From a virus, in IMG/VR virus record IMGVR_UViG_3300018423_000017, positions 1-42,754 of that record: DNA of 42,754 bases. One strand, 5' to 3'. Numbering within the stretch: the first letter of the stretch is position 1; the number at the start of each line of letters is the position of its first letter. This document shows positions 138-572 of this stretch, piece after piece. The translations under genes were made by a program, and so were the position numbers. The notes beneath the pieces are model-generated. The model was not told where the DNA came from. It saw nothing but the letters and a program-made list of their open reading frames with translations, and ran no database searches.

Positions 138-572
138 GGTTGGCGGGCCAGTTTAGAAATACCGCTGTGGAAAAAGCTAGGGTGATACCTGCACACGTAA
201 CATATTGATCGACGCACCAGAGTGCGGAGCCATCAAAAGAATTGGGCTACTGGTTGGTATAGATAGATTGTTGGCTGTCGAAAAACTGCACATTGTACAT
301 AAAAACCGTATGCACAGGAACGAAGCAACGGGTAAAAGTATAGTGTACAAGCTATAAATCCATTTTATAGTTTATGCACTATATTTTGATGTCGACGTAG
401 GTTGGGAAAGGTCAGAGCCCATTGTACAGCAGAAAACACCTACTTCCAATGTCTCGGCTGTGACGAACTCACATGAAGCTCTTGATTGGATGGAACCGTA
501 AACAGGTTCCGTCTGACTGAAACAATCTACATGAAACTTAAACATTAACACTTCGTGTTAATGTGTTTTCTC
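138..572 (+). ncRNA. Large multibranched structured RNA, family unknown
   Basis: This stretch has no open frame of useful length and is visibly richer in G and C than the coding DNA around it. By eye I find many nested, mutually compatible helices: 143-146/162-165, 179-181/188-190, 213-217/222-226 (5 bp), 228-231/245-248, 294-301/309-316 (one mismatch), 339-345/377-383 enclosing 352-358/364-370 (7 bp each), 397-402/438-443 enclosing 403-406/418-421, 445-450/485-490, 456-463/469-480 and 489-497/505-513 (9 bp). A 9-bp long-range helix, 264-272/521-529, closes the whole 3' domain as a multiloop. The palindrome TGTACA occurs three times (294, 344, 423) and could support kissing contacts. The RNA ends in a Rho-independent terminator. 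Size and layout recall the large ornate phage RNAs such as GOLLD and ROOL, but I cannot place it in a known family. No clear promoter is visible; it may be processed from a late transcript. Confidence 0.7.
542..570 (+). terminator. Rho-independent terminator of the structured RNA
   Basis: A perfect inverted repeat (ACATTAACA, then CTTCG, then TGTTAATGT) at 542-564 is followed by GTTTTC. Stem, short loop and T-run are those of an intrinsic terminator. It separates the RNA from the gene at 678. Confidence 0.8.

Follow-up and report, generated by a model that had tools for sequence, protein, structure and literature searches.

The window analyzed here, a DNA stretch of 42.8 kb, is a fragment of an uncultured T4-like phage with genes for the portal gp20, the prohead protease gp21, the major head protein gp23 and a T4-type baseplate gp26. 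It begins inside a SegE-type GIY-YIG nuclease gene, complete homologues of which match the Pfam family PF19835 (SegE_GIY-YIG) with 118 bits; the portion present in the window is 93% identical to the one in the locus L048, and the nearest cultured homologue (63%) is that of the Methylophilales phage Melnitz. The 3' end of this gene overlaps a large structured RNA, below called type A, and 3' of the RNA lie a poorly conserved ORF (678-1859), gp26 on the - strand and gp20/gp21/gp23. An initial annotation, made from the sequence alone, had placed the RNA in front of the tail module; with these genes downstream a structural, mainly head, module is the nearer description. The order in type-A loci is gp55 (late sigma factor), gp47, gp46, a small ORF, a nuclease gene, the RNA, a terminator and the late genes; among the latter are gp26, on the - strand, and gp20-gp23. 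Two small hairpins are found past the terminator at 606-627 and 629-647 (+) and are kept in an alignment of 28 loci, with stems that vary. Elsewhere in the window, at 11952-12512 between the major head gene and ORF 12510, Rfam matches identify a glutamine riboswitch (RF01739), a manA motif (RF01745) and a freshwater-2 motif (RF02980) in tandem.

The nuclease 5' of the RNA is usually of the SegE GIY-YIG type (PF19835). In L080 it is replaced by an unrelated PDDEXK/Holliday-resolvase-like protein (PF24608), and L071 and L116 have a nuclease assigned to this second kind by sequence similarity. An extra gene or a sigma70 promoter separates the nuclease from the RNA in several loci. Such a promoter of the RNA's own, TTGACA-N17-TATACT/TATAAT, is present in L177, L191 and L184 and, as judged by eye, also in L236.

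The region from 138 to 572 (approximately 435 nt) has no usable ORF, as the initial annotation had stated for about 430 bases, and it folds better than its dinucleotide shuffles, with a minimum free energy of -123.4 against -106.4±6.0 kcal/mol (z -2.8). A conserved ORF, which the annotation had named as evidence against an RNA, does not run across it: the homologues differ by indels of any length. The G+C content was said to be raised and indeed is, but only mildly, being 42.3% compared with 38.1% for the window, and 13% of the windows of the same size are equally rich. The proposed start at 138 lies too far downstream, as a covarying helix (127-132/269-274) reaches beyond it and conservation begins at about 115, inside the 3' end of the GIY-YIG gene. 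The length of the RNA is about 430-460 nt.

With an nhmmer profile the type-A family was found on more than 110 IMG/VR phage contigs. A scan for TGGGAAAGGTCRGAGYCC returned at least 120 stretches, and the RNA was present in every locus fetched. Among loci fetched by way of their portal and gp26 proteins about 50-60 contain the RNA, with 60-80% identity over its whole length; these homologous loci are IMG/VR contig fragments and not independent samples, and several of the statistics below were obtained with custom scripts. In bacterial genomes a 17-mer gave 52 matches, which is not above chance, and the RNA is present in only two contigs. Both of these (L308 and L310) have a phage gene context and belong to one Neomarinimicrobiota bin, which may be a hint at the host or the result of mis-binning.

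Searching positions 1-2900 of the window with Rfam 15 gave no above-chance match, even at E≤5. This holds for RNase P RNA, 6S, SRP and group I and II introns, and since ARAGORN finds neither a tRNA nor a tmRNA in the window, the earlier failure to fit the RNA to tmRNA, RNase P, SRP, 6S or a group I intron is upheld. A blastn search of the cultured phages in INPHARED with three type-A RNAs, one type-B RNA and one type-C RNA (see below) produced chance matches only. Phage Melnitz resembles the phage of the window in being marine and T4-like, in having an unusual RNA and in carrying the nearest cultured GIY-YIG gene. Its RNA is a two-piece tmRNA with a glutamine riboswitch (PMC9004378), unlike the type-A RNA, which is not a tmRNA according to ARAGORN and Rfam, and type A itself is missing from Melnitz.

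To the initial annotation, covariation among homologous intergenic regions was the test of the RNA, and this was analyzed in two alignments. In the first, with 96 dereplicated full-length members and mutual information judged against a tree-based null, 17 pairs were significant, twelve of which are at least 80% complementary. In the second, 60 sequences were scored against a structure of 12 helices: its 60 pairs are standard in 97.3% of the cases, and 29 of them change on both sides. Double-change cells numbered 299 compared with 83.5±7.1 in shuffled data (none of 500 shuffles was as high), the covariation score was 0.29 against 0.14, and the signal was lost when partner columns were slid by 1-3 positions. 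The claims of at least ten compatible helices and of a large, ornate and conserved phage RNA are thus borne out, most helices being supported by covariation (Table 1). Two pseudoknots are part of the structure. In the first, helix 127-132/269-274 uses the loop of the hairpin 262-279, and in the second, helix 397-402/438-443 crosses helix 295-299/423-427. The 9-bp long-range helix formerly drawn between 264-272 and 521-529 does not survive this comparison. Among the 60 homologues its pairing is 79.0% against 78.9% in shuffled data with no double changes, three of the nine pairs cannot form in 23-43 of the 60 sequences, and its 5' arm belongs instead to the covarying hairpin 262-266/275-279. An alternative helix, 397-404/523-530, was likewise rejected for showing no covariation.

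Table 1 Features of the type-A RNA locus in the window.
Feature	Position	Strand	Basis or remark
SegE-type GIY-YIG nuclease gene, 3' end (44 codons + stop)	3..137, truncated by window start	+	homology
AGGC motif of upstream array	91..94	+	array counts
Last AGGC motif, 5' edge of conserved RNA	115..118	+	alignment
Structured RNA, conserved 5' edge to terminator	118..572	+	nhmmer profile, covariation
P1 5' arm CCAACA, partner 269-274	127..132	+	overlaps last GIY-YIG codons (stop 135-137); 5/6 pairs with double changes (96 sequences), 99.7% paired (60 sequences)
P2 hairpin 143-146/162-165	143..165	+	100% paired, compensatory changes
P3 hairpin 166-169/194-197 with 176-178/190-192	166..197	+	covariation
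P4 helix 202-208/254-260, variable inner arm	202..260	+	57 double-change cells (60 sequences)
P6 hairpin 262-266/275-279, loop 267-274 pairs with 127-132	262..279	+	double changes in 5/5 pairs
P7 5' arm, GTACA in family consensus, partner 423-427	295..299	+	double changes in 5/5 pairs
P8 hairpin 306-309/328-331	306..331	+	60-sequence alignment
P9 hairpin, variable length, missing from short members	338..387	+	covariation (96-member alignment); poorly aligned in 60-sequence set
P10 5' arm GTAGGT, partner 438-443, crosses P7	397..402	+	99.2% paired, 2 pairs with double changes
P11 5' arm, partner 456-459	416..419	+	97.9% paired, near-invariant, zero double changes
Heptamer X1 ACATGAA, preceded by CTC	471..477	+	comparison of 96 homologues
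P12 hairpin GGAACC/GGTTCC	489..513	+	99.2% paired
Heptamer X2 ACATGAA, preceded by TCT	529..535	+	comparison of 96 homologues
Intrinsic terminator: hairpin 544-551/555-562, T-rich tail	544..570	+	sequence, relatives
Hairpins past terminator: TTTGAGCG-TTAGCGAAAAC and TGTTTCGT-GAA-ACGAAACA	606..647	+	family alignment
T4-type late-promoter-like CATAAATA	647..654	+	sequence; precedes ORF 678-1859; similar in several relatives

The + strand is the one that folds, since GU pairs (973) far exceed AC pairs (103). The strong terminator predicted at the 3' end was confirmed, and its hairpin is re-formed with other sequence in relatives (89 double-change cells). The conserved terminator, the strand-specific GU-rich folding and the sigma70 promoter in four relatives together suggest that the RNA is a stable transcript. 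It is near certain that the type-A RNA exists, and it is a new family of large structured phage RNA, absent from Rfam.

A heptamer occurs twice in the 3' part of the RNA, as X1 and as X2, the second of which ends 10 nt before the terminator. The two copies are the same in 95 of the 96 RNAs, across ten variants (ACATGAA, ACATAAT, ACATGAT, ACGTGAA, GCATGAA, GCATAAA, ACATGAG, ACATAAA, GTATGAA and ACAGGAA). By parsimony on the tree X1 requires 17 changes, X2 requires 16, and the two taken jointly 17. Gene conversion is an unlikely cause of this identity, because the flanks (CTC and TCT before the heptamers) stay different. The complement of X is not enriched within the RNA or its flanks, and none of the conserved gene starts carries one.

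A further signal lies 5' of the RNA. From the gp46 stop codon to the 5' end of the RNA, where the array ends, AGGC occurs at about 10-20 copies per kb on the RNA-sense strand (median 12 motifs over 680 nt), and the window holds only the last ~130 nt of it. The array covers this interval whatever genes intervene, in standard and in insertion loci, and it persists where a PDDEXK nuclease replaces the GIY-YIG gene. Measured against synonymous shuffling, the GIY-YIG genes 5' of the RNA contain 904 AGGC motifs where 229-238±13 are expected, an approximately 4-fold excess, and the PDDEXK genes contain 28 where 6.5±3 are expected; gp46, gp47 and gp20 are near their synonymous expectation. The complement GCCT is depleted 11-fold (3 observed, 33±5 expected). 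No other 4-mer is as enriched as AGGC, and when the ORFs of five large genomes (109-244 ORFs) were ranked by AGGC excess, the nuclease gene came first in four genomes (109-185 ORFs) and second in one. L131 and Melnitz, relatives in which no such RNA occurs, have GIY-YIG genes that lack the array.

An effect of Shine-Dalgarno sequences or codon usage is rejected because AGGA, AGGT and GGAA are depleted and AGGC is enriched in all three reading frames, and a conserved protein motif is rejected by the synonymous shuffling and by the persistence of the array in unrelated genes. The spacing of the motifs shows a mild excess at 20-25 and 45-49 nt, part of which may reflect shared ancestry. In predicted folds the accessibility of AGGC is 0.446 compared with 0.407 in shuffled sequences, which is only slightly higher. 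We favor an action of the array at the RNA level, as suggested by this slight increase together with the avoidance of GCCT; a role at the DNA level is possible, given that the accessibility is barely above the shuffled value.

The related RNAs fall into at least three types, of which the window carries type A, and loci seemingly without type A hold other RNAs of the same plan in the same place. Type C was found in at least 120 IMG/VR stretches, with the AGGC array and with twin AGATAAT heptamers in 63 of 64 cases, a count for which the search pattern had fixed one copy; in type B the twin heptamers read GAATAAT or AGATAAT. With a model of the type-A core, type B is recovered where it should lie, at marginal E values (0.013-0.07), and type C is not reached. 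The layout of the 3' core, with GTAGG...AGGTCA, the twin heptamers and TGACTnnnnCAATCT, is by eye the same in type A and in type C that bears the Polynucleobacter-1 motif (RF01718), and common descent of the cores across types appears probable from these resemblances.

The 141-nt model of RF01718 matches the 5' part of type-C RNAs over its full length, with 105 bits in L126 (5191-5325) and 112 bits in L128 (4575-4711), which is above the gathering threshold of 37 bits; the window itself gives no match at this threshold or at E≤5. What Rfam describes is only the 5' third of the type-C RNA. Type C as a whole shares with type A its position, the upstream AGGC array, the terminator and, as judged by eye, the 3' plan with twin heptamers. 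The motif is from fresh water and estuary and is classed as probably cis-regulatory in passages of an earlier account (PMC2864571), which mention no array, heptamers or 3' core. It was not found in 79 genomes of one bacterial family, where the control likewise matched nowhere.

The RNA looks modular and recombining, with 5' domains swapped between cores in short-type loci and in L251. In L150, L148, L080, L251 and similar loci, type-A cores are joined to different 5' domains, of which one resembles that of type B. In a non-T4 gene context, L184 carries on its - strand (1398-2150) the same RNA core, AGGC motifs and a perfect consensus sigma70 promoter; a weak match to a terminase small subunit lies downstream, and no recognised nuclease lies alongside. 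Pseudomonas phage PA5oct (L370), a cultured jumbo phage, shares the gp47-gp46...gp26-gp20 synteny and has at 10868-11530 a non-coding gap of ~660 nt with GC-rich hairpins and a TATGACT-like motif, and Sinorhizobium phage Phosso (L371), a phage with a related gp46, has at 8411-9424 a gap of ~1 kb that is free of annotated genes and lies next to a Holliday junction resolvase. A homologous RNA in either phage is rejected, as neither the type-A model nor Rfam gives a match.

As a working model we tentatively prefer, at somewhat less than an even chance, a trans-acting ribonucleoprotein with a single factor brought in by its AGGC leader and a single co-evolving partner bound at the twin heptamers. 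Rightward transcription of the gp55-gp47-gp46-nuclease operon would produce the RNA at the 3' end, some relatives using a sigma70 promoter of the RNA's own instead, and the terminator at 544-570 would release it. Many copies of one factor would bind to, and be loaded by, the AGGC sites on the RNA just 5', which are kept free of GCCT. X1 and X2, displayed by the folded core, would then hold two molecules, or a dimer, of the presumed partner, and the RNA would work in trans as a ribonucleoprotein.

Since the RNA is always at the same operon boundary, L184 excepted, a role in cis would suit the data too. Processive antitermination elements such as lambda nut and HK022 put are RNA-level signals on the nascent phage transcript beside a terminator, and the array and the RNA could form a comparable loading platform (as also in rut) that decides on the passage of polymerase through 544-570 into the structural genes. 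Such control at the early/late boundary would agree with the constant location of the RNA, flanked by the gp55-gp47-gp46 operon and the late cluster, with the terminator 10 nt past X2 and with an array solely 5' of the RNA and solely on the transcribed strand. However, the late genes of T4-like phages are served by promoters of their own, and the late-promoter-like CATAAATA follows the RNA; L184 carries the RNA in another context; and in size and degree of knotting the element far exceeds the antiterminators known, nut and put being far smaller and having no long motif array inside coding genes. We regard cis control as unlikely, if worth keeping in mind. Rather less probable is a replication origin, where the transcript would prime as an R-loop, like the T4 ori transcripts and ColE1 RNAII, and AGGC on the displaced + strand would load a primosome or initiator. 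A strand-specific array of a short motif beside a structured transcript, adjoining replication and recombination genes, is what such an origin might look like, and the GC skew changes sign near the locus in large contigs. This change, however, is located ~5 kb upstream, at the switch of gene orientation, and third-codon skew tracks the gene strand; because gene orientation explains the switch, GC skew is no independent sign of an origin and was rejected as evidence.

The conserved pseudoknots of this large ornate phage RNA bring to mind GOLLD, ROOL and OLE, described in parts of PMC12286853 as large, conserved and richly structured RNAs of little-known role, some of them in phages. The type-A RNA is like them in size, conservation and rich structure and has no sequence or covariance-model relation to them in Rfam, so that the assignment to the GOLLD/ROOL type made in the initial annotation is not supported; it also differs in its fixed place between gp46-nuclease and the late genes, in the AGGC array and in the twin heptamers. 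An RNA-only assembly or cage of the GOLLD/ROOL kind is improbable on these grounds: the twin heptamers could mediate symmetric contacts, but X1 and X2 cannot pair with each other, being identical rather than complementary and mostly non-palindromic, and the AGGC array would be left unexplained. We know of no feature of GOLLD or ROOL that resembles the twin heptamers or the array, nor of a parallel elsewhere to the array and the joint change of X1 and X2.

The omega RNA of TnpB and the HEARO RNA of IscB are structured RNAs that border a nuclease gene and overlap it, and with TnpB the nuclease binds an RNA from the 3' end of its own mRNA. The type-A RNA and the GIY-YIG gene share sequence at the 3' end of the gene, and in nearly all loci the RNA directly follows a gene for a DNA nuclease, whose fold is one or the other of two unrelated ones. 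Binding by this nuclease is nevertheless very improbable, as the same RNA follows GIY-YIG or PDDEXK nucleases interchangeably, unrelated ORFs lie between nuclease and RNA in several loci, L184 has neither nuclease recognisably beside the RNA, and the RNA ends in a terminator and not in a guide-like free 3' end. A packaging RNA used with the portal and terminase, like the pRNA of phi29, is hardly credible, as T4-type motors need no RNA and there are no complementary interlocking loops, even though the RNA is upstream of the portal/prohead cluster and is followed in L184 by the terminase-like match.

In the most far-reaching reading, to which we give close to an even chance, the mRNA of the coding region (or the + strand) carries a free AGGC array of one orientation that feeds a factor to a modular, pseudoknotted RNA, with the heptamers as a changeable address common to the RNA and one co-evolving partner, at a fixed locus in globally common uncultured T4-like phages. 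The organization of an array plus twin heptamers may be categorically new, and together with the RNA they appear to constitute an undescribed RNA system of widespread uncultured T4-like water phages. This adds a large, covariation-proven RNA family, carried on more than 100 environmental T4-like phage contigs and absent from Rfam, and it shows the orphan Polynucleobacter-1 motif of Rfam to be one piece of a longer phage RNA that occupies the same locus. The two unexplained signals, the array concealed within genes and the pair of heptamers that change together, are direct and mutable handles on the binding partners of the RNA.
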